Shown piece by piece: positions 15,952-41,939 of a DNA stretch of 64,000 nucleotides; position 1 is the stretch's first letter, and each line of letters starts with the position of its first letter. The position numbers and the translations under genes are program-made. The notes beneath the pieces are model-generated. The model did no database searches, was not told where the DNA came from, and was given only the letters and a program-made list of their open reading frames with translations. The DNA comes from Candidatus Nitrosopumilus sp. (GTDB lineage: Archaea; Thermoproteota; Nitrososphaeria; Nitrososphaerales; Nitrosopumilaceae), in assembly GCA_029263475.1 (NCBI GenBank), contig JAJCXK010000088.1, forward strand, positions 1 through 64,000. Reading direction: 5' to 3'.

Positions 15952-16998
15952 TTATTTTATTTTATATCTAAGAATTGCCAAAACTGAATCATCAATTTCA
16001 AGTCTCTTGATAATTTTGGGAGAAATTGCAAATTCTATTTTACATGCTGTACTTTTTGCAATCTCTAGCATCTTCATTATCTTTTTGAACTGAGCATTAC
16101 TGTGATAGTCTGCTGAAACAATTAGCATATCTACTGCCCCAATCTCTAATGCCTTGTAGATGGCATTATTTCTTTTTGCAGTTAATCCTTCTTTGACTAG
16201 TTTCTCATATTTTCCAAGTATCTCTGAAACGTATTTTCTTCTATGCTGATACAAGTGATGAATTATCTTCTTGTATACATCCCTAATTGGAGTACCAAAA
16301 GATAACTCTTCTACAAATCGGCATTTTTTTACAAGTTCTGAATCAAGCTCATGATAAAATTCTGTTTTTGCAGGGCCAATCCCACCTAATAGAATTAACT
16401 CTGAATTTGAATCCATCTCTCTGACTTTATTTGCAACTTTCTTAAAGAAAACATGAATCTTGGTCTGTCTAGCTCTAAGAAATCTCCCTTGACTTTGCCC
16501 TCCTTTTTTGTGTCTTCCTTGCAAATCAATTCGAAGTTTTGATTCTTGAGTAATCTGATTTCCATGAAATTTCTGAATTCTTGCAGTCTTTTGATCAAGT
16601 GTTACTAGTAACACATCATAGTTTATTTTTAGAATGTCTTCAAATGGTTTGATGTATGGTTTTTTGCTTGCCATGTAGATGTATGGAAGTTTCTTTGAGG
16701 TTCCAATTTCACTAATGTTTACTCTATCATTTTTTATCCATCCAAAAACACAAAGAGTTTTTGCAAACTTACCTGCAGATGGAGGATTTTCCTTTAGTTC
16801 TCTAATTCTCTTTTCAATTTTTGACTCTATTTTCTCAAATGATTCTTTTCTTTTTGTTTCCTGGAGTAAAGATATGGTCTCTTCTCCCTTTCCATATGGA
16901 TAATAAACAGATACACATGGAGAGTCAATTTGTTTTATTTCTTGTAAAAATCTATTCAGTGATAACCACTCAGATGGAGATATTTCAGTGGATTCCAT
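15952..16998 (-). CDS. eRF1/Vms1-like protein with GGQ motif, copy A
   Basis: GRHKKGGQSQGRFLRARQTKIHVFFKKVA; no NIKS motif in the N-domain; paralogue of 40881-41939. Confidence 0.85.
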   Translation of the reverse strand: MESTEISPSEWLSLNRFLQEIKQIDSPCVSVYYPYGKGEETISLLQETKRKESFEKIESKIEKRIRELKENPPSAGKFAKTLCVFGWIKNDRVNISEIGTSKKLPYIYMASKKPYIKPFEDILKINYDVLLVTLDQKTARIQKFHGNQITQESKLRIDLQGRHKKGGQSQGRFLRARQTKIHVFFKKVANKVREMDSNSELILLGGIGPAKTEFYHELDSELVKKCRFVEELSFGTPIRDVYKKIIHHLYQHRRKYVSEILGKYEKLVKEGLTAKRNNAIYKALEIGAVDMLIVSADYHSNAQFKKIMKMLEIAKSTACKIEFAISPKIIKRLEIDDSVLAILRYKIK

Positions 16999-17051
16999 GT
17001 TAGTGAATTTGGTTTGATACCAATAAATACAATACACAATCCAGACTATTC

Positions 17052-17561
17052 ATGTTTGGAAAAAAACCGGAACTCAAAGAAGGAGTTTTTGTTTTCTCTA
17101 CAAAAAAGAATGGAGATTATTATGACTTTATCTTTGGTGCAGTTACTGGTATTGAGGGCAGAAAAGTAGGAGTTAACGGAGTAATTGTAAATCCTGTTGG
17201 GCTCAAAAACAAATTAGATCAAGGAAAAACAGGTGAACGTTCACGAGAAATTCTTGAGAATCCCACTCCCGATAATGTTGTTTTAGCCCTAGTTTATCGA
17301 GTTGAACATGAAAATTATGCTGATACCCTAGATCTTGACGAAGATAAATGTGATATAATTCCTCCAAAGGTCTTTCAGATGCTTGATGGCTGGATTCGAG
17401 AATCTTTACCAGAATTTGTTAACACTGTTTTGTCTTTGCCACCTGGCTCAGAAAGAGATGAAGCAAAACGAGTTTTAAAACACAGAATGAATACTTTGAT
17501 TGATAAAAATCTGAAACGTACTCTTTACTCTGTTTGCCGAAGTCTGAAAATCTTAAACTAA
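17052..17561 (+). CDS. Conserved hypothetical protein
   Basis: 169-aa ORF, no family recognised. Confidence 0.75.
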   Translation: MFGKKPELKEGVFVFSTKKNGDYYDFIFGAVTGIEGRKVGVNGVIVNPVGLKNKLDQGKTGERSREILENPTPDNVVLALVYRVEHENYADTLDLDEDKCDIIPPKVFQMLDGWIRESLPEFVNTVLSLPPGSERDEAKRVLKHRMNTLIDKNLKRTLYSVCRSLKILN

Positions 17562-17626
17562 TTTTTCTAATTTTAGGCGTGAGTTCGCCATAGTTTTATA
17601 TTATGCCCTAAGAAAATCTCGATACA

Positions 17627-17935
17627 ATGGAATATGTTTACGCTGCTTTACTTCTTCACAAACTAGACAAAGAAGTTAACGAAGCAAACCTAAGCTCAGT
17701 TGTTAAAGCATCTGGTGCTGAAGTTAATGAAGCTCAAGTAAAATCTTTAGTCGCAGCCTTAGCCGATGTTAACATCGATGAGGCAGTTAAAGCCGCACCA
17801 GTAGCAGTTGCAGCAGCCGCACCCGCAGCAGATGCACCAGCAGCCGGTGATGACGCAAAGAAAGAAAAAGCACCTAAAGAAGAGGGTAAAACCGAAGAAG
17901 CAGCCATGGAAGGATTGTCTTCCTTATTTGGCTAA
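17627..17935 (+). CDS. rpl12: Large subunit ribosomal protein P1 (L12)
   Basis: [19 protein letters not shown]..., Ala-rich hinge, acidic tail ending EGLSSLFG. Confidence 0.96.
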
Positions 17936-18006
17936 GCGACTTTATTTTTCTCAATTTACTTTTGATCTCTATTTTTCGTCAATCTTAATTACTCATACCT
18001 CTGTGT

Positions 18007-18648
18007 TTGCATTGGATGGTGGATTTTTCTTTTCCAATTGACGGCTTTATCAGTATTTTAGATTACTTGGGAACAATTGCATTTGCAGTAACTGGAGCTT
18101 CCAAAGCAATTGCACACAAGGCAGATATTTTTGGAATTATTGTACTAGCTACCGTAGTTGGAGTGGGAGGAGGTGTAACTCGTGATGTTATCTTTGGTCG
18201 ATTCCCAACTGCATTTTCTGATCCAATTTATGTTGGATTGACTGTGACTGTTGGGATTGTGATGTTCTTTTTGTATGCAAAATTCAAAAAGCAGATGACA
18301 GTATGGCTTGTCTTTGATGCAGTAGGATTAGGTGTGTTTTCAATTTTAGGTGCATCAATTGCATACCAAGTAGTTGGATTAGAATTTCTTCCAATGGTGT
18401 TTGGTGGAATGATTACAGCAATTGGTGGTGGAATTCTCAGAGACGTCTTTGTCCGAGAAATCCCTATAGTCTTTGTAAAAGAGGTGTACGCTATTGCATC
18501 CATAGTTGGTATTGTAATATTTTATGTAATTTTATCCTCTGGTATAGATATGCAAGTAGCATCAATAATTGGAATTGCTGCTGCAACTGGAATAAGATTA
18601 CTTGCAATGAAGTATAATTGGAATTTACCCAAAGTTAGAGAAACTTGA
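18007..18648 (+). CDS. TRIC/UPF0126 family membrane protein
   Basis: Duplicated GGGVTRDVIFGRFP / GGGILRDVFVREIP with TM helices. Confidence 0.9.
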   Translation: MHWMVDFSFPIDGFISILDYLGTIAFAVTGASKAIAHKADIFGIIVLATVVGVGGGVTRDVIFGRFPTAFSDPIYVGLTVTVGIVMFFLYAKFKKQMTVWLVFDAVGLGVFSILGASIAYQVVGLEFLPMVFGGMITAIGGGILRDVFVREIPIVFVKEVYAIASIVGIVIFYVILSSGIDMQVASIIGIAAATGIRLLAMKYNWNLPKVRET

Positions 18649-18749
18649 GTATCTCTTGGATTTCAGAATTATTCTCTATTTTGCCTCCTAATACAATTCC
18701 AGTTCTTGAAAATCAAAAAAGGAAAATTTCTATTAGATTTTTATTAAAA

Positions 18750-18759
18750 ATACGCGTAT
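18750..18759. promoter_or_regulatory. Perfect 10-bp palindrome ATACGCGTAT directly upstream of the HTH gene
   Basis: Read directly; the start codon is at 18768. Confidence 0.4.
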
Positions 18760-18767
18760 AGTATTAT

Positions 18768-19094
18768 ATGAATATTTTACAATCAGTCTCCAAAATTGAA
18801 GAAGATTCTGGAAAAGACATACTGCTTGAAATTTTGTCTGATAGATACTGTAGAAAGATTTTGAAATCCATAACGTATAAACCAAAATCAACCATAGAAA
18901 TTTTTGAGGAAACAGGTATTCCCATTAGTACCATCTATAGAAGAATTCAAACTCTTTGTGATAGTAAATTACTTACAATTTCAGGTACTATATCCGAAGA
19001 TGGAAAGAAATTCTTTCTCTATAAGAGCAAGGTAGAATCAATCAACGCCACCTTCAATAATGGTAAAGTTGACGTTGAGGTAATTCTTACCTAA
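18768..19094 (+). CDS. Winged-helix/ArsR-type transcriptional regulator
   Basis: SDRYCRKILKSITYKPKSTIEIFEETGIPISTIYRRIQTLCDSKLL. Confidence 0.85.
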   Translation: MNILQSVSKIEEDSGKDILLEILSDRYCRKILKSITYKPKSTIEIFEETGIPISTIYRRIQTLCDSKLLTISGTISEDGKKFFLYKSKVESINATFNNGKVDVEVILT

Positions 19095-19193
19095 ACTTTT
19101 TTTGTTTGTAATGATTTACGAGAAATACAAATGACCAAACTAGATTCTAAACTATATCTATAAACTTAAGTTCAAAATTTACACATAAAGATT

Positions 19194-19280
19194 ATGAAAA
19201 GTTCGACTATTGGAGTAATTATAATTGGTATCTCTGTGGTTGTTTTTTATGGTGCCATGAGTTTATTGTGGGGATTCTGA
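19194..19280 (+). CDS. 28-aa single-TM micro-protein (MKSSTIGVIIIGISVVVFYGAMSLLWGF)
   Basis: ATG to TGA, one hydrophobic helix. Confidence 0.45.
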   Translation: MKSSTIGVIIIGISVVVFYGAMSLLWGF

Positions 19281-19291
19281 AAACTAACATT

Positions 19292-19726
19292 CTATTTTAT
19301 GATTAGAACTGGACATTTTGCTTTCTGCATAATTCCATTACTCACACTACCTAACAACACTTTGTCAAATCCTCCTCTGCCAAAAGAACCCATAACTATA
19401 AGATCGATGTTTTTGGACTTTGCAAAGGATATTAGATCTTTTGTTATACTTTTTGATTCTATGATTTTGAAATCCACTTGAATGGAATTTTGTTTTGCAG
19501 TTTTATCTAATTTGGAGAAATATTCTTCAGTTAGATTTTTTGCATTTTTTAAAATCCCTTTATTGACTCTTTTATCTTTATACCATCCCCCTAGATTTGT
19601 AATATCTAAACAAGTAACAACTTTGAGATTAGAGTCATGTTGTTTAGTTATCTCCATTGCTTTATTGAATGCACGAATTGCAGGAACAGACCCATCATAT
19701 GGAACTAAAATATTCTTAAAAGCCAT
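19292..19726 (-). CDS. Universal stress protein family
   Basis: FKNILVPYDGS...VMGSFGRGGFDKVLLGSVSNGIMQKAKCPVLIIK. Confidence 0.94.
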   Translation of the reverse strand: MAFKNILVPYDGSVPAIRAFNKAMEITKQHDSNLKVVTCLDITNLGGWYKDKRVNKGILKNAKNLTEEYFSKLDKTAKQNSIQVDFKIIESKSITKDLISFAKSKNIDLIVMGSFGRGGFDKVLLGSVSNGIMQKAKCPVLIIK

Positions 19727-20158
19727 TTATTTTACCACCATTACAGAACATTTTGCTTGCTGAGCCACGCCATTTGCAACACTTCCCAAAATTAATTTAT
19801 TCAAACCCGTTCTTCCATGTGATCCTATAACAATAAGATCTGATTTCCTAGATTTTGCAACGTTGATTATCTCCTTTACAATTGATGTACCTTGTTTAAT
19901 TTTTACCGACATTGGAACATTGCTATTTTTTGCTGCAGACTCTAGTTTGTAAATAAATTTTTTAGCTGCACTTTGTTGTTTTTTAATTACTTGAGAATTG
20001 ATTTTAGAATAACCAGTAACTGCGGAATACTCTCCTTCTATGACAGTAAATATAGTAATTTTAGAACCATCTTTTTTTGCAATATCTAATGCTTTTTGAA
20101 ATGCTCTACTAGAGAAACTTGTTGCATCATATGGTACTAGAATATTCTTAAAAATCAT
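19727..20158 (-). CDS. Universal stress protein family (tandem paralogue)
   Basis: FKNILVPYDATS...VIGSHGRTGLNKLILGSVANGVAQQAKCSVMVVK. Confidence 0.93.
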   Translation of the reverse strand: MIFKNILVPYDATSFSSRAFQKALDIAKKDGSKITIFTVIEGEYSAVTGYSKINSQVIKKQQSAAKKFIYKLESAAKNSNVPMSVKIKQGTSIVKEIINVAKSRKSDLIVIGSHGRTGLNKLILGSVANGVAQQAKCSVMVVK

Positions 20159-20343
20159 GTATGAAATTGTGTTTGTTTGAATTAAAAGAGAATACTTGAT
20201 TTTCATAAATGACTTTCAGAGTTGTAAACCGTAGAAAATTTAAAACAATTAGATTCAACTTTACATAGACTTCGTCAAATTAGAGGTGAAAATGGATGCA
20301 ACACTATCTGAAAATTAATTATTCACAAGTATCTATGATAGTT

Positions 20344-21210
20344 CTATGCAGGTGTGTAGTCTTTTGCTTGGCCTGCAACTGCTTTGGCCTGAGCATCTGC
20401 CTTTTGCAAGATTTGTTCTTTTGTCTCATCAGTCATAAATCCTGATTCAATAGATACAGCACGTGCAGATTGTGATGCCTTGCTAAGAATTTGTGAGATG
20501 TTATCTGCAGTAATGTATGCTGCCTCAATTGATAATGAAACAGCTTCTTGATGTGCTTGTCCGAATTCTGCTCTAATTGCCTCAACATCAATAATCATCT
20601 CTTCTTGAGAATATTTGAGACCCTCCTCTAATGCTGTAAATAATGTAATTCCTGCCTCAACTGGCTTGATATCTAATTTTCCTAATAGTGCGGCTAGTTT
20701 CTCATTGATTACACCGCCTTTCTCTACTGGAGTACTGTCTTTTGCAATCCAAATTGTACCTTGATCAATTTTAGTTGGAATGCCTGCTTCTTTGAATTCT
20801 GTAAGCATTGGACCTGGCGCAATTCCTGTATTCTTTGCAGGAACAACAATGTCAATACTTGCAACATCGCCACCACGCGCTGCCATCATGATTTTGTTTT
20901 TGGCAAGTAATACGTTTAGCTTGAATGGTGACATGTTTGTAAACATGAGCATGCATTGACCTGTTAATTCATCTGCCATTTCTTTGATTCCCGGTATGTC
21001 TAATTTACTTAAAGCTATTTTTGCAACTTTGTCTTTAATGCTAACAAATTCTACTTCTCCTTTGAGTGTCTTTCTTAGTGGTAAGATTTGTGAAGAGCGA
21101 ACTTTAGTCATTTTGATTATTGTCATTGTCTTGTATTTTTTTGGAACCTCTTGTAATTGTGCATACATCTGAGATTTTGCTTTAGGATAAGTTGTTCTGT
21201 TCTCATGCAT
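20344..21210 (-). CDS. rpl10: Ribosomal protein L10 (P0)
   Basis: Archaeal L10/P0 core; overlaps the downstream end of L1. Confidence 0.94.
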   Translation of the reverse strand: MHENRTTYPKAKSQMYAQLQEVPKKYKTMTIIKMTKVRSSQILPLRKTLKGEVEFVSIKDKVAKIALSKLDIPGIKEMADELTGQCMLMFTNMSPFKLNVLLAKNKIMMAARGGDVASIDIVVPAKNTGIAPGPMLTEFKEAGIPTKIDQGTIWIAKDSTPVEKGGVINEKLAALLGKLDIKPVEAGITLFTALEEGLKYSQEEMIIDVEAIRAEFGQAHQEAVSLSIEAAYITADNISQILSKASQSARAVSIESGFMTDETKEQILQKADAQAKAVAGQAKDYTPA

Positions 21211-21865
21211 GTTTCTTTCTGACCTCTTGGATTTGTTTAATTGGTTTGCCCATTGTTGTCTTTATCATAATTCTTTTCATGTTTTTCTCTCCGTTTGGTA
21301 ATTTCTTTTCAATTGCAGCAAGAACTGCATGTGCATTAATTGCCAAGTCTGCATCCTCCATTGTAATATCTCCAATCTTACATGATACAGATAGTGATGC
21401 TCTAGTTCTAACTTTGATTGATGTTCTAAATCTTGCCAAAAATGCACTAATATCTGCATTAAATGGAACTGGTGTTGGCATCTTTCCTCTAGGACCTAAT
21501 AATTGACCCAAAGTTTTACCAACAATTGGCATGACTTGAGTGTCTGCCAAAAAGTAATCATATTTGTTAATGAATTTTCTAGATTCTCTTTTGTTAGCTG
21601 CAAATTTATCTAATTCTGCTGTTCCAATTACAGAGTCTGCATTTGCAGCTTTTGCTTTTGTTCCCATGTCTCCTGTTGCCATAACACAAACAGTTGCAGG
21701 AGAACTAGTCTTTGGAAGTTGAACTACTTCATTGAGTGCAAATCCTTTTTTGACATCAATATCTTTGAAGTTGACAATTAACTCAATTGACTGCTTGAAT
21801 TTTCTTTCCTTTGTTGCAGCTTTTGCCTCTTTGATAACATCGACCAGCTGTACCTCTGTAATCAT
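21203..21865 (-). CDS. rpl1: Ribosomal protein L1
   Basis: KLGQLLGPRGKMP-like motif (KTLGQLLGPRGKMPTPV). Confidence 0.95.
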   Translation of the reverse strand: MITEVQLVDVIKEAKAATKERKFKQSIELIVNFKDIDVKKGFALNEVVQLPKTSSPATVCVMATGDMGTKAKAANADSVIGTAELDKFAANKRESRKFINKYDYFLADTQVMPIVGKTLGQLLGPRGKMPTPVPFNADISAFLARFRTSIKVRTRASLSVSCKIGDITMEDADLAINAHAVLAAIEKKLPNGEKNMKRIMIKTTMGKPIKQIQEVRKKHA

Positions 21866-21981
21866 TACGAACATTTTTCAAGAATGCCTACTTAAAATCG
21901 TTTAGAGATTGAGATTTTTAGATACTCTTTATTTTAAAAAATTACATATTTTAATGAAAATATTTGTAAATCCAAAGCAAA

Positions 21982-22488
21982 TTGCCCTCAAAACCTACAT
22001 ATATTAAATCAGAACCTCAAATTTTGAACGCGTTGCATAGATTTGACGAACTTGATATGAAATTACTTTATGAATTAACCAAAGATGGTTCAATTTCTGT
22101 TCCTATTCTATCTAAAAAACTCGGAATTAATGCATCAGTTCTGTATAGTAGAATTAAACGATTAATGAAGAAGAAACTAATTAAGAAATTCACTATAGAG
22201 ATTGATGACACTCTACTGGGAATTGGAGTAAAGGCATCAGTTGGAATTAACCGCGATCCAAAATACAAAGATACAATTCACAAAAAATTTATGGAAACTC
22301 CTGAAGTTGTAGCAATTTCAGAAGTAACTGGTAGATTTGATATTATGATTGAAGTTTATGCCAAGAATTTAGAGGCCCTCCATTCAGTAGTAATTGAGAA
22401 AATTGGAAAAATCGAAGGCATTCAAAATACTGAAACCTTTGTAGAATTACAAAAGACTGACAAAGATCCAGTTTATCTGATTCAATAA
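21982..22488 (+). CDS. Lrp/AsnC family transcriptional regulator (TTG start)
   Basis: HTH LDMKLLYELTKDGSISVPILSKKLGINASVLYSRIKRL and a RAM-like domain. Confidence 0.9.
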   Translation: MPSKPTYIKSEPQILNALHRFDELDMKLLYELTKDGSISVPILSKKLGINASVLYSRIKRLMKKKLIKKFTIEIDDTLLGIGVKASVGINRDPKYKDTIHKKFMETPEVVAISEVTGRFDIMIEVYAKNLEALHSVVIEKIGKIEGIQNTETFVELQKTDKDPVYLIQ

Positions 22489-22499
22489 TCGTCCAAATC

Positions 22500-22664
22500 A
22501 TGGATTTTTGGAAGACTTTACAACGTCTCAGTTTTAAGAAATTATCTATCATTTTTCTAGTACTTTTAACGATAACATTCCTTGGAATCTATACTACTTG
22601 TGGTACTCTTTACAAGGTTGATTGCCATGAGGTACTTTTACGTAAAATCCCAAGAGGATTTTAG
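22500..22664 (+). CDS. 54-aa single-TM micro-protein (MDFWKTLQRLSFKKLSIIFLVLLTITFLGIYTTCGTLYKVDCHEVLLRKIPRGF)
   Basis: ATG to TAG with a clear TM helix. Confidence 0.5.
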   Translation: MDFWKTLQRLSFKKLSIIFLVLLTITFLGIYTTCGTLYKVDCHEVLLRKIPRGF

Positions 22665-22716
22665 ACTAACATAACGAAAACATTAAACAAACAATGGGAT
22701 TGATTTTTGATGTATA

Positions 22717-22827
22717 ATGGATAAAAAAGACGGTCTAGTTTTAGCTGGAATTATTGCCGGTGCCAGTACTGCTGTAACATTGATGATTTTTGTTGCAAAT
22801 GGAATTATTAAAAATCCATTTCTATGA
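22717..22827 (+). CDS. 36-aa single-TM micro-protein (MDKKDGLVLAGIIAGASTAVTLMIFVANGIIKNPFL)
   Basis: ATG to TGA, hydrophobic helix. Confidence 0.5.
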   Translation: MDKKDGLVLAGIIAGASTAVTLMIFVANGIIKNPFL

Positions 22828-22947
22828 CCACATATCTAGTTCTTTAGATTCTCTTTTCTTACCCCACTTGTGTTTAATCTCTAGATGAATCTCTAGTTTG
22901 TGAGGAGAATCCATCACATCGTTGCATATTAGACATCGATAAGACAA
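22822..22947 (-). CDS. 41-aa C2H2 zinc-finger micro-protein (TTG start)
   Basis: SYRCLICNDVMDSPHKLEIHLEIKHKWGKK: C-x2-C-x12-H-x4-H. Confidence 0.6.
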   Translation of the reverse strand: MSYRCLICNDVMDSPHKLEIHLEIKHKWGKKRESKELDMWS

Positions 22948-24547: not shown

Positions 24548-24548
24548 T

Positions 24549-31256: not shown

Positions 31257-31679
31257 ATGAGTGAAGTCCAAGCTGAGCAATTAATGCAGCAAATGCAAAT
31301 GCTTGAAACATATTTTTCTGATTTGTCTCAAAGGGAAGGAACTTTTCTAAATATTTTGAGAGAGGCGACTGCTTCTATCGAATCTATAAAATCACTTGGT
31401 CAGAAACCTGAGTCAGAAACTCTGGTTCCAATTGGAATGGGTACATACATCCCAACAAAAATCGCAGCTAATACAAAGATTGTAATTAATATTGGTGCTG
31501 GAATTGCAGTTGAAAAAGATTTCCCATCTGCAATTAATTATCTTGAAGCTAGAATTAAAGAGGTTGAGATTGCTTTACAAGACACTGCTGCAAAAAAGCA
31601 GGAAGCGGCAGGAAGATTAGAGCAAGGCAAAGCACAAATGAACCAGCTAATGCAATCTTCATCTCCTCCAAATTCGTGA
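31257..31679 (+). CDS. pfdA: Prefoldin subunit alpha
   Basis: Coiled coil - beta (LVPIGMGTYIPTKI) - coiled coil; directly upstream of ftsY. Confidence 0.88.
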   Translation: MSEVQAEQLMQQMQMLETYFSDLSQREGTFLNILREATASIESIKSLGQKPESETLVPIGMGTYIPTKIAANTKIVINIGAGIAVEKDFPSAINYLEARIKEVEIALQDTAAKKQEAAGRLEQGKAQMNQLMQSSSPPNS

Positions 31680-31685
31680 TAGTAC

Positions 31686-32930
31686 ATGTTTGATAAACTT
31701 CGTAAAGCATTTTCAAATGCGGCGAAAAGTTTTGGTGAAAAAGAACTTAATGAAAAAGATATTGAGGATATTCTTTTTGAATTGGAAATTGCTCTCTTGG
31801 AATCTGATGTTGCCACTGAAGTAATTGATTCCATCAAATCTGATTTAAAAGAAAAATTAATTGGTTCAAAAGTTGACCGACATGAAATTGAAAAATTTGT
31901 TAAAGATAGTTTGATTTCAAACATTTCTTTAATGTTTGATGCTGTGGGAACAATTGATCTCTTGGAAAAAATACGTGAAAAAAAGAAACAGGGACAACCT
32001 TTCCTAATTTTGTTTGTGGGAATTAACGGTACTGGAAAGACAACTTCTTTGGCCAAAATTGCATATATGTTACAGCAGGCAAAATTATCTGTAGTCATTG
32101 CAGCTGCTGACACTTTTAGAGCTGGTGCAATTGAACAATTACGTGAACATGCAAATCGTCTCAATTTGAAACTCGTTGCTCAGAATTATGAGTCAGATCC
32201 TGCGGCCGTTGCCCGAGATGCGGTTTTATATGCAAAATCCCACAAGACTGACTGTGTATTAATTGATACAGCAGGAAGAATGCAGACAAGTAAAAATTTA
32301 ATGGAACAAATTGGCAAAATTACCAAAGTCGTAAATCCTGACATGACAATTTTTGTAGGTGATTCTCTATCTGGAAATGATACTGTGAATCAGGCACGTG
32401 AATTCTATGAACATGTTAAATTCAATGGTTCAATTTTAACAAAAAGTGATGCAGATGCAAGGGGCGGAGCTGCTTTATCTATCGTAAACGTTACATCTAC
32501 ACCTATAATTTTTGTTGGGGTTGGACAAGAGTATCCTGACTTAATTCCTTTTGATAAGGATGTTTTCTTGAAAACCGTTTTTGGAACCTTGAATGATGTT
32601 GAACTTAGTATGACTGTTGAACCGAAGCCTGAACCGAAGCCTGAACCAAAAACGTCTTCTGATGATCCTTTTGCTGGAATCAGTGATGATGATATTGCAA
32701 TTTATTCAGATCTATTTGATATCCCTCCCCCTGAAAATGATGATGAAGCAATTAAACTTGGAAACAAAATTCGTAATTGGATTAAAAATGAAAGACCAAA
32801 ATCAGATGTCATTGATACCAAAAAAGATGATAATATTCAAGTCGAACCTAAATCCGATGATGTGCCAAAGCATGATAAAGAAGAAAAACCTAAAAAGAAA
32901 AGAGGATTATTTGGATTCTTAAGAAAATGA
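31686..32930 (+). CDS. ftsY: Signal recognition particle receptor FtsY with unusual C-terminal extension
   Basis: GINGTGKTTSLAKIA, DTFRAGAIEQL, DTAGRMQ, TKSDADARGGAALS. Confidence 0.96.
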   Translation: MFDKLRKAFSNAAKSFGEKELNEKDIEDILFELEIALLESDVATEVIDSIKSDLKEKLIGSKVDRHEIEKFVKDSLISNISLMFDAVGTIDLLEKIREKKKQGQPFLILFVGINGTGKTTSLAKIAYMLQQAKLSVVIAAADTFRAGAIEQLREHANRLNLKLVAQNYESDPAAVARDAVLYAKSHKTDCVLIDTAGRMQTSKNLMEQIGKITKVVNPDMTIFVGDSLSGNDTVNQAREFYEHVKFNGSILTKSDADARGGAALSIVNVTSTPIIFVGVGQEYPDLIPFDKDVFLKTVFGTLNDVELSMTVEPKPEPKPEPKTSSDDPFAGISDDDIAIYSDLFDIPPPENDDEAIKLGNKIRNWIKNERPKSDVIDTKKDDNIQVEPKSDDVPKHDKEEKPKKKRGLFGFLRK

Positions 32931-33841
32931 AACTTAAAACAAAAGATGTGCTTACTTTAGCGGAATTGTCTTCAAAAGAATTTTTAGGACTAATCAACTC
33001 TTCCATCAAACTAAAAAAAGAACTCAAAAAAAATAGAAACAAACCAATTTTAAAAAATAAAACATTGACGATGATTTTTCAAAAACCATCTACTAGAACA
33101 CGTGTAAGCTTTGAAATTGGAATGCTTCAGCTTGGAGGACATGCAATTAATTTGTCATCTAACGATACGCAACTATCTCGTGGTGAATCTGTTGAAGATA
33201 CTGCAAAAACTCTTTCACGATATTCTGATTGCATAATGGCACGTGTTTACGAACATGAATTGTTGGAAAAATTATCTAAACATGCAAGTATCCCTGTAAT
33301 CAATGGATTATCTGATTCTTTTCATCCTTGTCAAATTTTAGCTGATTTCATGACAATTAAAGAAAAGAAAAAGAAATTTCAAGGGATAAAAATTGCATGG
33401 ATTGGAGATGGAAATAACGTGTGTAATTCTATGATTTATGGTGCTGCATTATCTGGAATTGATATGTCCATTGCAACTCCCAAAGGATTTGAACCTGAAA
33501 AGACGGTCGTCAATGAATCCAAAAAATTGACTAACATTGAATTGACTACTGATCCATTCATTGCAACTAAAAATGCAGATGTGGTTGTAACTGATACGTA
33601 TTCTTCAATTCATAACAACGATCCAAAAAGGATGAAAAAATTCCTTCCACAGTATCAGGTTAATTCAAAATTGATGAGTAATGCAAAGAAAAATGCGATC
33701 TTTTTACATTGTCTTCCAGCTAAGAGAGATCAAGAAGTTACTTCATCAGTTATTGATGGATCTCAATCTGTAGTCTGGGATGAGGCAGAAAATCGACTAC
33801 ATGCTCAAAAGGCTTTACTTGCATCTTTGATTTACGCTTAA
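32927..33841 (+). CDS. argF: Ornithine carbamoyltransferase
   Basis: FQKPSTRTRVSFE, HPCQILADFMTI, HCLPAKRDQEV. Confidence 0.96.
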   Translation: MKLKTKDVLTLAELSSKEFLGLINSSIKLKKELKKNRNKPILKNKTLTMIFQKPSTRTRVSFEIGMLQLGGHAINLSSNDTQLSRGESVEDTAKTLSRYSDCIMARVYEHELLEKLSKHASIPVINGLSDSFHPCQILADFMTIKEKKKKFQGIKIAWIGDGNNVCNSMIYGAALSGIDMSIATPKGFEPEKTVVNESKKLTNIELTTDPFIATKNADVVVTDTYSSIHNNDPKRMKKFLPQYQVNSKLMSNAKKNAIFLHCLPAKRDQEVTSSVIDGSQSVVWDEAENRLHAQKALLASLIYA

Positions 33842-33877
33842 CGTATATAAGAGCAGATTCAAACTCGGTTTCTATAG

Positions 33878-34360
33878 ATGGCTTATTCAAAAATATTGCG
33901 AAGATTAAGGGAAGAAAAAACCAATTATAAAAAACGTGGAACCATGTTGACTGGTAAACGTGATTTCATCACTGTAAATATTACTAATCAAAACACTCAA
34001 GTTCAAATCCTCACACCTGGGATGACTGGAGACAAAGTTATTGCATCTGCCCATTCTAGATATCTTCTTGAAAAAGGATGGAAGGGTTCTAGAAAAAGTG
34101 TACCTGCAGCATATCTCACAGGATATCTAGCTGGAAAGAAAGCCCTTGGAAAGGGTGCAAAAGGTGCCATTATGTATACTGGCACCCGAAGATATACTCA
34201 AAGAATGGCAGCTGCTCTAAAAGGAATCATAGATGCTGGCGTTGAAGTTCCAGCCGATGAAAAAACCTTTCCAGCTGAAGAAAGAATCAACGGCGAACAT
34301 CTTACTGTTAAAAATGAAATTTCTAAAATTAAATCTTCAATTGATAGTGAGGTTAAGTAG
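33878..34360 (+). CDS. rpl18: Ribosomal protein L18 (uL18)
   Basis: FRRLREEKTNYKKR-like start and GWKGSRKSVPAAYLTGYLAGKKAL. Confidence 0.93.
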   Translation: MAYSKILRRLREEKTNYKKRGTMLTGKRDFITVNITNQNTQVQILTPGMTGDKVIASAHSRYLLEKGWKGSRKSVPAAYLTGYLAGKKALGKGAKGAIMYTGTRRYTQRMAAALKGIIDAGVEVPADEKTFPAEERINGEHLTVKNEISKIKSSIDSEVK

Positions 34361-34362
34361 AT

Positions 34363-35076
34363 ATGAGTCAGGCATCCCAATCTAAACCTGGACAAGGTGG
34401 TCGTGGAAGAGGCCCACCAGTATATGGCCGTGGTCCACCTGGAGGCGTAGCTGGACGTCCAAAAAGGCCTAGAAGAGAACCTGAAGAAGAAGTTTGGGTT
34501 CCAAAAACCATCTTAGGACAAAAGGTTGCTTCTGGAGAGATTACCTCTCTTGAGGAAATTATTGAATCTGGATTAAGAATCCAAGAGTCTGGAATAATAA
34601 AGAAATTACTACCTGATTTGAAGAGTGAGGTTGTTGATGTGGGTATAATTCAAAAGATGACTTCAAATGGTCAATCTACCAGGTTTAAAGCAATTGTTGC
34701 TGCCGGAAATGAAAATGGTTATTTGGGAATTGGTCAGGGAAAGTCAAAACAAATGAGAATTGCTATTGAAAAGGCAACCAGTCAGGCTTTTCTTAACGTA
34801 AATCCAATTAAAATGGGCTGTGGAAGTTGGGAATGTAGATGTACCCAAAAACATTCTGTCCCGTTCAAGGTTAAGGGTAAGGGAGGAAGCGTTACAATTG
34901 AAATTATCCCGGGTCCTCGTGGATTGGGTCTTGTTGCAGGTGGTAAAATTAAACGATTATTGGAATTGGCTGGTCTTAAAGATGCCTGGACTACCGCAAA
35001 AGGTTCTACTCCTACAATGAATTCAACTTCAAAAGCAATATTGGACTGTCTTAGACAGACATTCAGTCAGGGTTAA
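34363..35076 (+). CDS. rps5: Ribosomal protein S5 (uS5) with RG-rich N-terminal extension
   Basis: EEVWVPKTILGQKVASGEITSLEEI, CGSWECRC, PGPRGLGLVAG. Confidence 0.96.
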   Translation: MSQASQSKPGQGGRGRGPPVYGRGPPGGVAGRPKRPRREPEEEVWVPKTILGQKVASGEITSLEEIIESGLRIQESGIIKKLLPDLKSEVVDVGIIQKMTSNGQSTRFKAIVAAGNENGYLGIGQGKSKQMRIAIEKATSQAFLNVNPIKMGCGSWECRCTQKHSVPFKVKGKGGSVTIEIIPGPRGLGLVAGGKIKRLLELAGLKDAWTTAKGSTPTMNSTSKAILDCLRQTFSQG

Positions 35077-35082
35077 TGAATT

Positions 35083-35550
35083 ATGACAAATGCATATCTT
35101 GTTGTTAGAATAAAGGGTCAGGCTGATTGTCCTTACTGGGCAACAACCACCATGACCTTATTGAAATTAGATAAAAAATACCGCGCAACAATTTTGCCTG
35201 CAAAAGATAATACTTTGGGAATGTTGAAAAAGGTACAACATTATATATCTTGGATTGAAATCGATGCTTCTTTGGCAACAGAATTGATCGATAAGAAGGC
35301 AAGAAAGGGTGGATATCAAAAAGTCACCGTTGATGATCTAAAAGAACTTGGATTTGCAAGTGCTGAAGAGTTAGGAATTGCTTTGGCTGAAGGCAAGGCT
35401 ACGCTGTCAAAACTAAAACCTCTTAAGCCTTGGTTTGCTTTGGCACCCCCAGTTCATGGATTCAAAAGAAGTACAAAGAAATTATATGGTCAGAAAGGAA
35501 TGCTTGGACTAAACAAAGAGCTTGGTACTATAGTGAGGAGAATGATTTAA
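35083..35550 (+). CDS. rpl30: Ribosomal protein L30 (uL30)
   Basis: AYLVVRIKGQADCP... and C-terminal PPVHGFKRSTKKLYGQKGMLG. Confidence 0.94.
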   Translation: MTNAYLVVRIKGQADCPYWATTTMTLLKLDKKYRATILPAKDNTLGMLKKVQHYISWIEIDASLATELIDKKARKGGYQKVTVDDLKELGFASAEELGIALAEGKATLSKLKPLKPWFALAPPVHGFKRSTKKLYGQKGMLGLNKELGTIVRRMI

Positions 35551-35551
35551 C

Positions 35552-35977
35552 ATGGCAACCAGATTACGAAAAACCCGAAGACTTAGGGGTGGAAGACACA
35601 TGGGATGGGGACAAGTGGCTCAACATCGTGCAAGTGGTCATAAAGGCGGTTTAGGAATTACCGGAATGCAGAAACATCATTACAGTACTTTGTTAAAAGA
35701 GGACCCAGATCACTATGGTCATGATTCTACTAAACCACCTCACCCAAATATTACAAAAAAATGGACCAGCGTACGTGATCTAGACGACTTGTTTACTAAG
35801 TTTGGTAAAGAAGAAGGAGGAAAAAAAATTGTTGATCTTGAAAGTGCTGGATATGAAAAACTCCTTGGCGGCGGAAAACTCATTAACACATATTCCGTTA
35901 AAGTCCCGCGATTCACAGCCTCTGCAGAAGAGAAACTAAAAGCTGTTGGGGGAGAGGTGTTATCTAATAATGGCTGA
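35552..35977 (+). CDS. rpl15: Ribosomal protein L15 (uL15)
   Basis: TRLRKTRRLRGGRHMGWGQVAQHRASGHKGG. Confidence 0.95.
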   Translation: MATRLRKTRRLRGGRHMGWGQVAQHRASGHKGGLGITGMQKHHYSTLLKEDPDHYGHDSTKPPHPNITKKWTSVRDLDDLFTKFGKEEGGKKIVDLESAGYEKLLGGGKLINTYSVKVPRFTASAEEKLKAVGGEVLSNNG

Positions 35978-37400
35978 GGGTAGCGTCACTGCTATTATTC
36001 GAAAAGTTGTTTTTAAGGCAGAGCCTTATCTTCCTCAAGTTCCAAAACCCAAAAAGAAAATCCCTCTTCAGGTAAGATTACTGTGGTGTGGAATTGCATT
36101 ACTAATCTATATGATAATGGGTCAAACTCCTTTGTTTGGAGCCAGTGCACCTGCATTCGACTTTCTTGCATTTGCTAGAGTAATTTTTGCATCACAGCAA
36201 GGTACGCTGGTAGAGTTAGGCATAGGACCTATAGTGACAGCTGGTCTCTTGATGCAATTATTGAGAGGTTCAGACATTCTTAAATTTGATTTCAAGAAAC
36301 CTGAAGAGCGTGGAATTTTTCAAACGGCTACTAAACTGGTAACTTATGTCGTAATTGTGGCTGAGTCTATTGTATATGCAACTGCAGTCTACGGTCCTGG
36401 TGTAACTGAGCCATATGTCTTGTATGTTCTAATTGGCCAGCTGATGGCTGCATCTATCATTATCATGTTTTTGGATGAATTGATTCAGAAGGGATGGGGT
36501 CTGGGTAGTGGAATCAGCCTGTTCATTATGGCAGGTGTTGCTCAACAGATTCTTTGGAGTATGTTTAGTCCCTTGCCTGCAGGGGATGGGGGCACGATCG
36601 GAATTATCCCATACATCGTTCAATCTGTGATGGCAGGTGATGTTTCACAAATATTGTTCCGTTCTAATTCGCTTCCTAGTATATTCGGGTTGTGTCTAAC
36701 TGCCGGTATATTGTTGATACTTGTGTTCACACAAGGAATGAAAATTGAAATTCCAATTGTCTCAACAAAATATAGGGGCTTCTCCGCTGTTTATCCCATC
36801 AAATTGATGTATGTTTCAAACATTCCTGTCATCTTGGCTTCGGCATTGACTGCAAATGCTGTTTTCATTTTCCAGATGTTGTGGGCAAACATGAATCCGC
36901 GTAACAATAATTTCTTCATGAATTTTGTAGCTCAATTTGATCCGACAAGTCCTTCAACGCCAATTGGAGGTATTATCTATTACATCACTCCTCCAAGAGG
37001 CTTAGATGTTGCGGCTTTAGATCCTATGCGCGCAGTTGGCTATGTATTATTCATGGTTGGAATTGTGGTTGTATTCGGAAGGCTGTGGGTAGAACTTGGA
37101 GGTTTGTCTCCAAAGAGTGCAGCACAGAATTTGCTTGATGCAGATGTCCAGATTCCTGGATTTAGAAGATCCAATAAGCCTGTTGAGGCATTGCTGAACA
37201 AATACATTCCATCCGTCACAATTATTGGCTCCATGATATTGGGTCTTTTGGCGGGTGTTTCTGATGTACTTGGAGTATTTGGTTCTGGTATCGGAGTTTT
37301 ACTTATGGTTGATATTCTGATTAACTATTACACGCAATTGGTTAGGGAACAAGTTGAAGTCGTCATGCCGCGTTTGGGTGCTATGCTTGGCAGAAAATAA
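35970..37400 (+). CDS. secY: Preprotein translocase subunit SecY
   Basis: About 10 TM; GIGPIVTAGLLMQLL; STKYRGFSAVYPIKLMYVSNIPVILASAL. Confidence 0.97.
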   Translation: MAEGSVTAIIRKVVFKAEPYLPQVPKPKKKIPLQVRLLWCGIALLIYMIMGQTPLFGASAPAFDFLAFARVIFASQQGTLVELGIGPIVTAGLLMQLLRGSDILKFDFKKPEERGIFQTATKLVTYVVIVAESIVYATAVYGPGVTEPYVLYVLIGQLMAASIIIMFLDELIQKGWGLGSGISLFIMAGVAQQILWSMFSPLPAGDGGTIGIIPYIVQSVMAGDVSQILFRSNSLPSIFGLCLTAGILLILVFTQGMKIEIPIVSTKYRGFSAVYPIKLMYVSNIPVILASALTANAVFIFQMLWANMNPRNNNFFMNFVAQFDPTSPSTPIGGIIYYITPPRGLDVAALDPMRAVGYVLFMVGIVVVFGRLWVELGGLSPKSAAQNLLDADVQIPGFRRSNKPVEALLNKYIPSVTIIGSMILGLLAGVSDVLGVFGSGIGVLLMVDILINYYTQLVREQVEVVMPRLGAMLGRK

Positions 37401-37965
37401 GAAAATTGTAATGGTGGGAATTCCAGGTGTTGGAAAAACTACACTATTGTCCGAAATGGTTGAAATTCTCAAGAATCATGCACGGAATGTCTGTATGATT
37501 AGTTACGGAACTTTGATGTTTGAGGTTGCAAAAGAAAATGGCCTTACAAATAGAGATCAACTAAGGAAATTGCCCGTTTCAGAGCAACAACATTTTCAAA
37601 AAATTGCTGCTGAAAAAATTACTGCACATGAAGAGGAAATCATCATTATTGATACTCACGCATTTATCAATTCCCCTGAAGGATATTATCCTGGATTACC
37701 AGAACACGTTCTAAAAATAATCAAACCTACTAACTTTGTTTCCGTTTCGGCAAAACCTGAAGAGATCTATAACCGGAGAATGAAGGATGATACTCGAAAC
37801 AGGGATAAAATTACCCTTGCCAACATTAAAAAAGAATTAGACGTACAATCAGGCATGATTTCTGCTTGTGCCGTAATTACCGGTGCTCCTGTCAGGCACG
37901 TTCTAAATCATGAGGGAAAGGTTGATGAAGCAGCAGCCAAAATCATTAGTGCGATAGGACTGTAA
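37387..37965 (+). CDS. adkA: Archaeal adenylate kinase (probable TTG start)
   Basis: KKIVMVGIPGVGKTTLLSEM; overlaps the secY end. Confidence 0.92.
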   Translation: MAENKKIVMVGIPGVGKTTLLSEMVEILKNHARNVCMISYGTLMFEVAKENGLTNRDQLRKLPVSEQQHFQKIAAEKITAHEEEIIIIDTHAFINSPEGYYPGLPEHVLKIIKPTNFVSVSAKPEEIYNRRMKDDTRNRDKITLANIKKELDVQSGMISACAVITGAPVRHVLNHEGKVDEAAAKIISAIGL

Positions 37966-37968
37966 AAA

Positions 37969-38595
37969 ATGGATTTTAACTTTATTCTACTATTCATTGA
38001 TTCTATTCCTCTACAATTTGAATTTCTTAGTGGGGAACGAATGAGGCTGGGTTCTGATGATCCTATAGTGAAAGGATTGATTCTTTCAATGTTTGCTGTA
38101 TCTGGATTTGGAATTTTGCTAAATATCTTCAATTCTGCGGTTAGAAAAAAGATGGTTGATCAAGTGAAACTAAAACGTATTATGAAAGAAACTAGAGGAT
38201 GGCAAAAAGAAAGAATGGCTGCAATGAGATCTAAGGATCAAGCCAAAATTGCTGAACTAAGCAAAAAATCATCCTACATGAATAAGATGTCTATGGAGAT
38301 GATGCAAATGAACATGCGACCTATGATGATTACTTTTGTACCTTTGATATTGATATTTTATCTAGTCTTACCTCAATTGTTTACTTATACTGTAGCAATA
38401 TCGCCAATTCCACTAAATGTGATTCCAGGAGAAATGTTCCAACTTACATGTTCTGCTGAACAATCTTTAGATGAGGGGCATGAATGTTTTGGTCAGGAAA
38501 ATGCATTATTTCTATGGGCTTGGTATTTCCTTTCATCAATTGCATTTAGTGGCATTATAATGAGACTTACAAAAACGTCGATGGATCTAGGTTGA
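37969..38595 (+). CDS. DUF106/EMC3-TMCO1-like membrane insertase
   Basis: Three TM, KLKRIMKETRGWQKERMAAMRSKDQAK helix; position in the secY operon. Confidence 0.88.
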   Translation: MDFNFILLFIDSIPLQFEFLSGERMRLGSDDPIVKGLILSMFAVSGFGILLNIFNSAVRKKMVDQVKLKRIMKETRGWQKERMAAMRSKDQAKIAELSKKSSYMNKMSMEMMQMNMRPMMITFVPLILIFYLVLPQLFTYTVAISPIPLNVIPGEMFQLTCSAEQSLDEGHECFGQENALFLWAWYFLSSIAFSGIIMRLTKTSMDLG

Positions 38596-39152
38596 CAAAA
38601 TCAATTGTTATCTCTGGTCCTCCTGCAGTAGGTAAAACAACTGTTGCCAAAGGGTTGGCCGCAGAATTCGAATTGCAGTATCTCAGTGGAGGAGATGTAC
38701 TCAAGGAGATGGCTAGTGAACAGGGGTTTGATTCTAAGGGTGATGACTGGTGGGATACTGAAGAAGGGATGAAGTTCTTAAATCAGCGTGAACTAAATCC
38801 TGAGTTTGACAAAAAACTTGACAAAAAATTATCTGCTTTGTTTGATAAAGGAGGAATGGTAATCACCAGTTACACATTACCATGGTTAATCAAAGATGGT
38901 ATTAGAATTTGGCTTGAGGGTTCTCATGAAAGCAGTACAAATAGAATGCAGTCTAGGGATAACATGAGTTCTGAAGATGCATACAAAATTACCCAGGAGA
39001 GATTTGATAAGAACAAGGCATTGTATAAAAAACTGTATGATTTTGACTTTGGCGATGACAAGTCTGTGTTTGACCTAATTATTAACACGGATGATCTCTC
39101 AGCACAACAGGTAATTGATGTCGCAAAAGAAACTGTGAGAAATCTACTTTGA
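38592..39152 (+). CDS. cmk: Cytidylate kinase
   Basis: SIVISGPPAVGKTTVAKGLA, LSGGDVLKEMA, position in the operon. Confidence 0.9.
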   Translation: MTKSIVISGPPAVGKTTVAKGLAAEFELQYLSGGDVLKEMASEQGFDSKGDDWWDTEEGMKFLNQRELNPEFDKKLDKKLSALFDKGGMVITSYTLPWLIKDGIRIWLEGSHESSTNRMQSRDNMSSEDAYKITQERFDKNKALYKKLYDFDFGDDKSVFDLIINTDDLSAQQVIDVAKETVRNLL

Positions 39153-40150
39153 CGCTAAAACAGTTTGAAAATTTAATTGAGATTGATCAGGATATCACTG
39201 ATGATGCATATGGAACGTATTATGATAAGAGAACAATTGAACAGCTACTCAACAACGGCATAATTCTTCTGGATAAGCCCCCTGGCCCTACCAGTCATGA
39301 AACCGTGGCTTGGACAAAACGTCTTTTGAAACTTCCAAAAATTGGACATAGTGGAACATTGGATCCTCAAGTTTCTGGCGTACTGCCATTGGGATTGGGT
39401 GATGCGACAAAGGCTTTGGGTGTTTTACTATATGGTCCAAAAGAATACCATGCACTAGGACGAGTTCATTCCCTTCCTTCTAAAGAAAAACTCCTTGAAA
39501 TTGTTGAAATGTTCAAGGGTGAAATCTTTCAAAAACCTCCTCAGCGTTCGGCTGTCGTAAGACAAACCCGAACTAGAACCATCTATGAATTTGAAGTAAT
39601 GGAGCAAAAGGAAAGATTACTTCTGACTAGAGTCTTGTGTGAATCTGGAACTTATGTTAGAAAACTATACTATGACATTGGTGAAGTTCTAGGTCCTGGA
39701 GCAACCATGGTTGAGCTTAGGAGAACCCGAGTTGATCAGTTTTATGAAAAAGACGGGTTGGTAACTTTACACGAACTCGCTGATGCGTTTGCTTTATGGG
39801 AAGAAAAAAAAGATGATACCAAACTGATGAAAATGATCAAACCTGTTGAATCTGCTCTCAGTGAGCTAAAATCCGTAATCATCCGCGATTCTGCCGTTGA
39901 TGCGTTATGTCATGGTGCACAGCTTGCAATTCCCGGAATACTGAAAATATCTCCCAATCTGAAAAAAGGTGACATTGTTGGAGTTTATACTCAAAAAGGG
40001 GAGGCGGTTGCATTGGCCGAGTCTACGATGTCTGAGGAAGAGATTAGAGATGCCGTAAAGGGATGTGCCTTTGAAACAAAAAGACTCATAATGGCTCCAA
40101 ACACTTATCCAAAAAAATGGAGATCAAGTCCATCTTCTCCAAAGGATTAA
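39149..40150 (+). CDS. cbf5: tRNA/rRNA pseudouridine synthase Cbf5/TruB
   Basis: LLDKPPGPTSHETVAW, GHSGTLDPQVSGVLPLGLGDATK, C-terminal PUA. Confidence 0.96.
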   Translation: MTLKQFENLIEIDQDITDDAYGTYYDKRTIEQLLNNGIILLDKPPGPTSHETVAWTKRLLKLPKIGHSGTLDPQVSGVLPLGLGDATKALGVLLYGPKEYHALGRVHSLPSKEKLLEIVEMFKGEIFQKPPQRSAVVRQTRTRTIYEFEVMEQKERLLLTRVLCESGTYVRKLYYDIGEVLGPGATMVELRRTRVDQFYEKDGLVTLHELADAFALWEEKKDDTKLMKMIKPVESALSELKSVIIRDSAVDALCHGAQLAIPGILKISPNLKKGDIVGVYTQKGEAVALAESTMSEEEIRDAVKGCAFETKRLIMAPNTYPKKWRSSPSSPKD

Positions 40151-40176
40151 AAAATCCAATAATCATTTCAAAATAA

Positions 40177-40623
40177 TTGTTAGCAAAAAGTCTTGTATTG
40201 TTCATTGGGATTGGTGTGATTGCAGGGTTTGTTTTTGGCGTTTATCTAATTGATGTAAAAAGCAGCAGTCAGCTAGTTTTCGTTGATGGGCCTTCTGTTT
40301 CTATAGTGACCGAAAAATCTGATTTTAAAAAAAATGAGAAAATAAACATCATGATTGTAAACTCTGGCACCACGTCATTGAGTTTTTCTGATGCATCATA
40401 TGGCCTTAGAATTACTGGGCTATCTGGAATTTTGATGTATGCTCCTACTGTCTCACATGTAGTGTCTAGTTTAGAACCTGGAGGTCAAGTTATCTTTTCA
40501 TGGGATCAAATCAAGAATGATGGTGATGTTGCATTGGAAGGTCTCTATAAAATATCTGTAAAAGGAATGGATGAATCAGAAAACAACGTGGAGAATTCAA
40601 TTACGGTGACAATCTGGAAATAG
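40177..40623 (+). CDS. Hypothetical membrane-anchored protein with Ig-like/DUF4352-like fold
   Basis: N-terminal TM, then a beta-rich domain (FKKNEKINIMIVNSGTTSLSFSDASYGLRI). Confidence 0.65.
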   Translation: MLAKSLVLFIGIGVIAGFVFGVYLIDVKSSSQLVFVDGPSVSIVTEKSDFKKNEKINIMIVNSGTTSLSFSDASYGLRITGLSGILMYAPTVSHVVSSLEPGGQVIFSWDQIKNDGDVALEGLYKISVKGMDESENNVENSITVTIWK

Positions 40624-40690
40624 TTTTTCGATTTCAAAATAACACAATATATAATCACATTTTACTAAATACTTTTGTCGTGAGACTTGT

Positions 40691-40788
40691 GCCGGGGTCG
40701 CCTAGCCTGGTAGGGCGCGCGCCTGGAAATTATTAACCATAAAGCGCGTTCTCGCAAGGGAACGGGAGTTCAAATCTCCCTCCCGGCG
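40691..40788 (+). tRNA. tRNA-Ser(GGA) with 14-nt intron at 37/38 (about 40729-40742)
   Basis: Acceptor GCCGGGG/TCCCGGC, D-arm GCCT/GGGC, anticodon stem CGCGC/GCGCG, loop CTGGAAA, long variable arm GTTCTC-GCAA-GGGAAC, T-arm GGGAG-TTCAAAT-CTCCC. Confidence 0.93.
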
Positions 40789-40880
40789 CTTTTTTAATTT
40801 AAGATAATCCTGAAATTTGATCTCTGATTCATCATATGTTAAATGCATTAGTTTTTTTACGAAAGAAAAAAGTGAAATGC

Positions 40881-41939
40881 ATGAAAGAACGTTCGGAATT
40901 GTCTGAGATCTCACCGTCTGAATGGATGTCTCTGAATCAATTTCTTTTCAAGATAAAGCAGGTTAATTCTCCCTGTGTATCTGTCTATTACCCTTATGGC
41001 AAAGGCAAGGATATGATTTCATTATTTCGTGAAAACAAAAGAAACGAATCTTTTGAAAAAATTGAATCAAAAATTGCAAAAAGAATAATTGAAATCAAAG
41101 ATGATCCGCCATCTGCTGGAAAATTCAGCAAGACTCTGTGCATTTTTGGGTGGATGGAAAATGGCAGAGTATTGATCAAAGAAATTGGAACTTCAAAAAA
41201 ATTACCTTATCTTTACATGGCAAGTAAAAAACCATATGTCAAGCCATTTCAGGATCTCCTGAAAATCAATTATGATGTATTGCTAATAACGCTTGATCAA
41301 AAGTCTGCAAGAATACAAAAATTTCATGGCAATCAGATTACGCAAGAGTCAAAACTTCGAATTGACTTGCAGGGGAGACACAAGAAGGGGGGACAGAGTC
41401 AGGGGAGATTTTTACGGGCCAGGCAGACCAAAATCCATATTTTCTTTAAGAAAATTGCCAACAAGGCAAGGACCATGGATTCGAATTCTGAGCTTATTCT
41501 TTTAGGTGGGACAGGCCATGCAAAAACGGAATTCTATGATGAACTCAATTCTGAATTGATGAAGAAATGTAGATTCGTAGATGATCTCTCATTTTCAACT
41601 TCCGTGCAAGATGTTCACGAAAAAATAATTCATCATTTGTATTTGTATAGGAGAAAATATGTTGCAGAATTAATTGAGAGGTATGATCAACTATTCAAAA
41701 CAGGATTGACTGCCAAGAGAAATGATGTGATCTACAAGGCATTGAAAATTGGGGCTGTGGATACGCTAATTGTTTCTGCAAACTATCATACTAACTCAAA
41801 GTTCAAGAATATCATGAAGATGCTTGAGATTGCAGAAAATACATCATGCAAAATTGAATTTGCTTCCTCTCCAAAAATCATTGAGCGATTAAAGATCAAT
41901 AACTCGGTCATGGCTTTGCTTCGATACAAAATAAAATAG
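40881..41939 (+). CDS. eRF1/Vms1-like protein with GGQ motif, copy B
   Basis: GRHKKGGQSQGRFLRARQTKIHIFFKKIA; long stretches identical to copy A. Confidence 0.85.
   Translation: MKERSELSEISPSEWMSLNQFLFKIKQVNSPCVSVYYPYGKGKDMISLFRENKRNESFEKIESKIAKRIIEIKDDPPSAGKFSKTLCIFGWMENGRVLIKEIGTSKKLPYLYMASKKPYVKPFQDLLKINYDVLLITLDQKSARIQKFHGNQITQESKLRIDLQGRHKKGGQSQGRFLRARQTKIHIFFKKIANKARTMDSNSELILLGGTGHAKTEFYDELNSELMKKCRFVDDLSFSTSVQDVHEKIIHHLYLYRRKYVAELIERYDQLFKTGLTAKRNDVIYKALKIGAVDTLIVSANYHTNSKFKNIMKMLEIAENTSCKIEFASSPKIIERLKINNSVMALLRYKIK

Follow-up and report, generated by a model that had tools for sequence, protein, structure and literature searches.

The DNA analyzed here (the window) consists of positions 1 to 64000 of the 69,772-bp contig JAJCXK010000088.1 (C88), from a 2.29-Mb metagenome-assembled genome (MAG) of a Nitrosopumilaceae archaeon (Candidatus Nitrosopumilus sp.; 96% complete, 8% contaminated). 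It carries two genes, P0001 and P0002, whose products are related to the archaeal release factor aRF1, bear a GGQ loop and lack the known elements for reading stop codons. Both open reading frames (ORFs) were intact, as described in the initial annotation (Table 1). Their description as near-identical held for a quoted 40-residue block, which is the same in both proteins, whereas protein identity between the two was 77%. Identity of the coding DNA was approximately 71 to 83%, varying by region, and a comparison of the flanks found no homology outside the ORF ends. The two genes showed a dN of 0.14 and a dS of ∼2.2 (near saturation), with a dN/dS of ∼0.06, values indicating that both are under strong purifying selection.

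The eRF1-like identity of the GGQ proteins was borne out by Pfam, whose model of eRF1 domain 2 (PF03464) matched both above its cut-off (E values of 3.9e-13 for P0001 and 4.1e-14 for P0002). Domain 3 was matched weakly and below threshold by both copies, and domain 1 (eRF1_1) gave no Pfam match in either. With the NCBIfam model aRF1_eRF1 (TIGR03676) the copies scored 82.8 and 86.4 bits, without reaching the cut-off of 234.7. A profile of the family aligned with that of Nitrososphaeria aRF1 over its full length (332 columns, E value of 3.5e-23) and with that of Thermoproteia aRF1 over 327 columns (E value of 5.1e-19); the alignment with Pelota covered 207 columns, in the middle and C domains, and that with an archaeal VLRF1 (aVLRF1 L132) was confined to 28. 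In a profile search of the PDB the top match was the aRF1 chain 3agk, over the full length. An AlphaFold model of P0002 (pLDDT of 82.5, pTM of 0.64) had archaeal aRF1 4af1 as its top fold match (E value of 1.6e-18), over the whole length. By these sequence and model comparisons, the family is one of three-domain aRF1 homologues, with 26% identity to the aRF1 of the same genome over the matched part.

The two proteins had previously been filed as Vms1/baeRF-like, which these results do not sustain. The full-length alignment to aRF1 contrasts with the 28 columns shared with VLRF1, the family forms its own clade in a deep tree, and the Pfam matches in question do not discriminate, since the model of baeRF family 10 (PF18854), which matches the middle domain above cut-off, also matches canonical aRF1 (L162) and archaeal control genomes, and the acVLRF1 model likewise matches both this family and canonical aRF1. 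Membership in VLRF1/Vms1, baeRF or Balon was not supported, the best alignments being full length to aRF1.

As had been noticed from the letters alone, the elements of codon reading are missing. Opposite QGTADNI(KS) of the genome's own aRF1 the alignment has a 7-residue gap, with no NIKS equivalent, and YMASKKP is aligned with YRCDDHF in place of YxCxxxF. Nearly all a/eRF1 proteins have both motifs, NIKS and YxCxxxF, which stop-codon decoding requires (PMC2613156). In the same alignment the GT element ahead of the YIPKG-bearing strand and the zinc ribbon of domain 3 were also absent. The N domain still aligns to the N domain of aRF1, and neither the alignment nor the model would accommodate a long coiled coil.

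Table 1. Positions in the window of the two genes, their motifs and the adjoining tRNA gene
Feature	Coordinates	Strand	Basis
P0001, 348 aa, aRF1 paralogue with GGQ and without NIKS	15952..16998	(-)	ORF/translation; Pfam eRF1_2, E 3.9e-13; aRF1_eRF1, 82.8 bits vs 234.7
P0001 residues 166-170, GGQSQ, predicted catalytic loop	16489..16503	(-)	alignment with aRF1
P0001 residues 43-54, same NIKS-loop deletion as in P0002	16837..16872	(-)	alignment with aRF1
P0002, second member of the family of P0001, 352 aa	40881..41939	(+)	ORF/translation; Pfam; AlphaFold model
P0002 residues 47-58, TASNIKS-loop deletion site	41019..41054	(+)	aRF1 SLQQEQGTADNIKSDLT vs SLFRE-------NKRNES in P0002
P0002 residues 112-118, YMASKKP, replaces YxCxxxF (YRCDDHF in own aRF1)	41214..41234	(+)	alignment
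P0002 residues 170-174, GGQSQ, predicted catalytic loop	41388..41402	(+)	aligned with aRF1 GGQSA; conservation
P0002 residues 347-349, LRY, corresponding to the GTPase-contact motif (GILRY/AILRY) in eRF1/aRF1	41919..41927	(+)	invariance; PMC2613156
tRNA-Ser(GGA) with 14-nt intron, directly upstream of P0002	40691..40789	(+)	ARAGORN, intron option

The catalytic part of the protein was the best preserved. Among 48 Nitrosopumilaceae members, the most conserved 15-residue stretch starts at residue 169 (mean majority of 98.8%), and the loop and helix at residues 160 to 190 reached a mean majority frequency of 0.946, compared with 0.76 in the N domain. The latter was the least conserved domain, with 13 of its 115 positions invariant. 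At the other end of the protein, L347, R348 and Y349 were invariant in 52 family sequences; the GILRY motif has been implicated in GTPase binding (PMC2613156).

A separate canonical aRF1, which the initial annotation had recommended looking for, was found in the same genome on contig C83. This protein of 426 amino acids scored 420 bits with TIGR03676 and contains TADNIKS, YRCDDHF and GGQSA. The genome also encodes a Pelota without GGQ (contig C57) and an NFACT-R protein of the NEMF/RqcH type. With the canonical aRF1 and the GGQ-less Pelota encoded separately, neither P0001 nor P0002 is the housekeeping release factor.

Comparison of 66 family genes (64 relatives plus the two window copies) revealed three forms of the loop: GGQSQ in 62, GGQSA in two (L034 and L035) and GGWSQ in two (L036 and L037), the last two from separate MAGs of separate families. 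At least one of the two loop glutamines was retained in all 66. According to PMC6514570, GGQ characterizes classical aRF1 and GGxSQ characterizes aVLRF1 and acVLRF1; GGQSQ fits both registers, and GGWSQ fits the second. The occurrence of all three forms within one clade is suggestive of a shift in the register of the catalytic glutamine. The loop is known to decay in noncatalytic relatives, namely, Dom34, Balon and most baeRF proteins (PMC6514570; PMC10901736; PMC2613156). GGQSQ was dropped as a rescue-specific signature, for canonical Thermoproteia aRF1 carries it too. A bacterial acVLRF1/baeRF-like ORF of 272 amino acids from an uncultured Dehalococcoidia (L102) has GGQSAKRF, with the loop in the form typical of classical aRF1.

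The two copies appear to have different histories. Two single-contig sister genomes, G168 (95% identity) and G150 (89%), carry orthologues of P0002 at its own site, and neither has a P0001-type gene; P0002 is the resident orthologue that it shares with them. P0001, for its part, was closer to the single copy of another species (83%) than to P0002 (77%), and an ancient ancestry shared with the P0002 lineage was not rejected (approximately unbiased [AU] test, P of 0.55). From these comparisons, P0001 would be either a transferred copy or a paralogue of long standing that other genomes have lost. As for the duplication within about 25 kb, a recent tandem event was not supported by these identities. 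A dose need or specialization arising through local duplication was not shown either; measured against the species split the copies are old, and their contexts have nothing in common. Synteny breaks exactly at P0001 (15.2 to 17.1 kb of the window): it separates a GDH-TOPRIM block from an L12 block, and in the sister genomes these two blocks are distant from each other. Either a true rearrangement or misjoining of the MAG may account for this. An assembly repeat artefact is unlikely despite this junction, given that differences run through the whole of the copies and the flanks of one are unrelated to those of the other.

The distribution of the family was examined in 201 and in 400 genomes of the order. 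The gene was carried by 18 of 23 genomes of the window's genus (decayed in one of the 18) and by 7 of 29 other Nitrosopumilaceae, that is, by 25 of 52, and it was present in 81 of the 400 genomes. Outside Nitrosopumilaceae there were four deeper lineages, the deep members L034 to L037, together with a single gene of high identity from G061, a MAG that belongs to another family, and a phylum-wide sample contained, beyond the known members, only apparent canonical aRF1 genes. All members fell into one clade with a support of 100/99 in the deep tree. Its sister group in this tree is uncertain owing to long branches. As judged from these trees and searches, the family is a lineage-restricted clade of aRF1 paralogues in Nitrososphaeria. 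Two copies were also found in Nitrosopumilus sp. b1 and probably in G660. Decayed copies with in-frame stops or frameshifts were detected in three cases (L225 in G586, L226 in G682 and L227 in G162), and in two of the three the frame changes near the G-rich codons of the GGQ loop. The gene is accessory.

By a simple shared-neighbor rule, the 66 gene neighborhoods fell into approximately 31 contexts, a count partly inflated by short contigs. Apart from shared synteny no gene recurred as a partner, and the repeated neighbors examined looked like proteins common across the lineage. A frequent site was the 3′ side of tRNA-Ser(GGA), where P0002 lies and where the same arrangement was seen in L038, L047, L061, L079 and L093; no duplicated tRNA 3′ end of the att-repeat kind was found around P0002. 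The tRNA gene, which escaped a default ARAGORN scan, is an apparent recurrent insertion site on that side. PADLOC models of defense systems gave no match, no relatives were found in phage records or viral contigs, and the plasmid search returned only haloarchaeal genes annotated as aRF1.

Several related observations were made in the course of these searches. The haloarchaeal genes reside on 10 nonmobilizable plasmids (H1 to H10) and, annotated as or matching aRF1, are extra release-factor genes. Three genes of another family of the phylum (L154, L160 and L192; f18) encode a second full-length aRF1 paralogue that keeps the zinc ribbon, lacks NIKS and has GGQSQ or GGSSQ; they form their own clade and represent an independent NIKS-less aRF1 paralogue. 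Finally, ∼10 kb at the end of a 1.04-Mb scaffold named Candidatus Rhodobacter lobularis (NZ_LFTY01000001.1; L093) encodes proteins 84 to 98% identical to those of window positions 31257 to 41500; the stretch takes in the tRNA-Ser gene and the 5′ end region of P0002. This archaeal DNA in an alphaproteobacterial record is probably a chimera or contamination.

The rescue known from archaea depends on Pelota, which takes stalled ribosomes apart; since Pelota has no GGQ, peptide release is not expected of it. With some reserve, we lean toward the view that the family, restricted to Nitrososphaeria, frees peptides from stalled ribosomes independently of a stop codon. The protein keeps the tRNA-mimic body of three domains and would act in the A site of a stalled 70S ribosome, its trimmed N domain filling the decoding side but reading no codon while the middle domain places the GGQ(SQ) loop in the peptidyl-transferase center and hydrolyzes the peptidyl-tRNA. 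Retention of LRY in the C domain makes delivery by aEF1A-GTP probable, as with aRF1 and Pelota. The basis at the sequence level is the three-domain homology, the loss of the codon-reading elements, the kept and extremely conserved catalytic loop, the separate aRF1 and Pelota and, in an accessory gene of patchy occurrence, the purifying selection, and it is in keeping with this proposal that Pelota, an NEMF/NFACT-type protein of ribosome-associated quality control and aRF1 are all encoded in the same genome. The hydrolysis itself, the attachment to stalled 70S ribosomes, the role of aEF1A and the physiological trigger are inferences. A bolder version, in which codon-blind release factors with an active GGQ make up an archaeal family not described before, their glutamine able to shift between the aRF1 (GGQ) and Vms1/VLRF1 (GGxSQ) registers, is offered tentatively and is rather doubtful.

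Some observations weigh against a rescue release factor. The TM-scores of the P0002 model were low, mostly 0.4 to 0.5, which is attributable to uncertain domain orientation in the model. GGQSQ alone is not diagnostic, given its presence in canonical Thermoproteia aRF1, and an LRY tail with a shortened N domain would not prove binding to aEF1A or to the 70S ribosome. No conserved partner gene pointing to a rescue pathway emerged from the 66 neighborhoods, and the patchy distribution and the pseudogenes show that the gene is dispensable.

The same loss of stop-codon reading is seen in Vms1 (PMC5989216), and the family might, like Vms1/ANKZF1, hydrolyze peptidyl-tRNA on free 50S subunits, working beside the NEMF homologue once a stalled ribosome has been split by Pelota and ABCE1. 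The NFACT-R protein and Pelota of this genome would suit such a role, as would the GGWSQ of two deep members, which is the GGxSQ register described for VLRF1 in PMC6514570; acVLRF1 (PF18859) is, moreover, the best Pfam match of the deep members. We consider this unlikely, however, for the family retains the LRY tail and every one of the three domains of aRF1, whereas aVLRF1 has no C-terminal domain, only 28 columns could be aligned to aVLRF1, and the accessory domains of Vms1 are absent.

A Balon-like factor, hibernating in or protecting the A site of idle ribosomes, seems less probable still. The AlphaFold model does fold-match Balon structures, Nitrosopumilaceae have been reported to be without identified hibernation factors (PMC13324472), and there were weak NCBIfam matches to the Rv2629/AOC03_06830 families (E values of 1.9e-8 to 1.6e-6), although at 27 to 34 bits these stayed far from the cut-offs of 320 to 330. 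What disfavors hibernation is that Balon and the archaeal Balon candidates are defined by the absence of both NIKS and GGQ, whereas the GGQ loop is here the most conserved element; the gene is also missing from many complete Nitrosopumilaceae genomes. As for a specialized termination factor reading another A-site signal (an altered codon or a regulatory site), or a regulator competing with aRF1, the retention of a partly conserved N domain would agree with it, but none of the three elements known to read codons is left, and that domain is the least conserved of the protein, which makes this reading very improbable.

Should the favored interpretation of a codon-independent release factor for stalled ribosomes be correct, cells that are among the most abundant in the ocean would possess an archaeal equivalent of ArfB or Vms1, a lineage-specific factor with the GGQ chemistry and no codon reading. 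A register-shifting family would, if real, stand as a natural intermediate, with termination factors on one side and rescue factors on the other, and would give Nitrosopumilaceae a peptide-releasing rescue route in addition to Pelota. The GGQSA/GGQSQ/GGWSQ series is also a natural test case for a change in catalytic-glutamine register. The probable rescue role is one that had not been ascribed to this gene family before. No literature on thaumarchaeal eRF1 paralogues or on this family was found among the papers searched; PMC6514570 lists archaeal VLRF1 and classical aRF1, and in its main text Thaumarchaeota occur only as a figure abbreviation. A patchy, relocating and sometimes decayed gene fits the idea, put forward by Burroughs and Aravind in the same source, that release-factor paralogues have been recruited repeatedly under stress or conflict.

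Compared with known systems, the family has in common with aRF1 (TIGR03676; 3agk and 4af1) the three domains, the GGQ loop with its basic helix, a G-rich patch in the middle domain (GPGPTK in aRF1) and LRY; it differs in lacking NIKS, the GT element, YxCxxxF and the zinc ribbon and in being accessory where aRF1 is universal. Like the VLRF1 clade (Vms1/ANKZF1, aVLRF1 and acVLRF1), it is codon independent by sequence and in most members has the second glutamine (GGxSQ register), but it possesses an eRF1_3-like C domain and neither the N-terminal coiled coil nor the accessory domains of Vms1. With baeRF family 10 (PF18854) it shares a conserved glutamine and the middle-domain Pfam match, which is not diagnostic, baeRF being a bacterial clade. 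Pelota/Dom34, also codon independent, aligns in the middle and C domains, whereas it has an Sm-like N domain and no GGQ. Balon, the bacterial hibernation factor (Rv2629/AOC03_06830), has the same aRF1-like three-domain fold without NIKS, and it lacks the GGQ that is the best conserved element of the present family.

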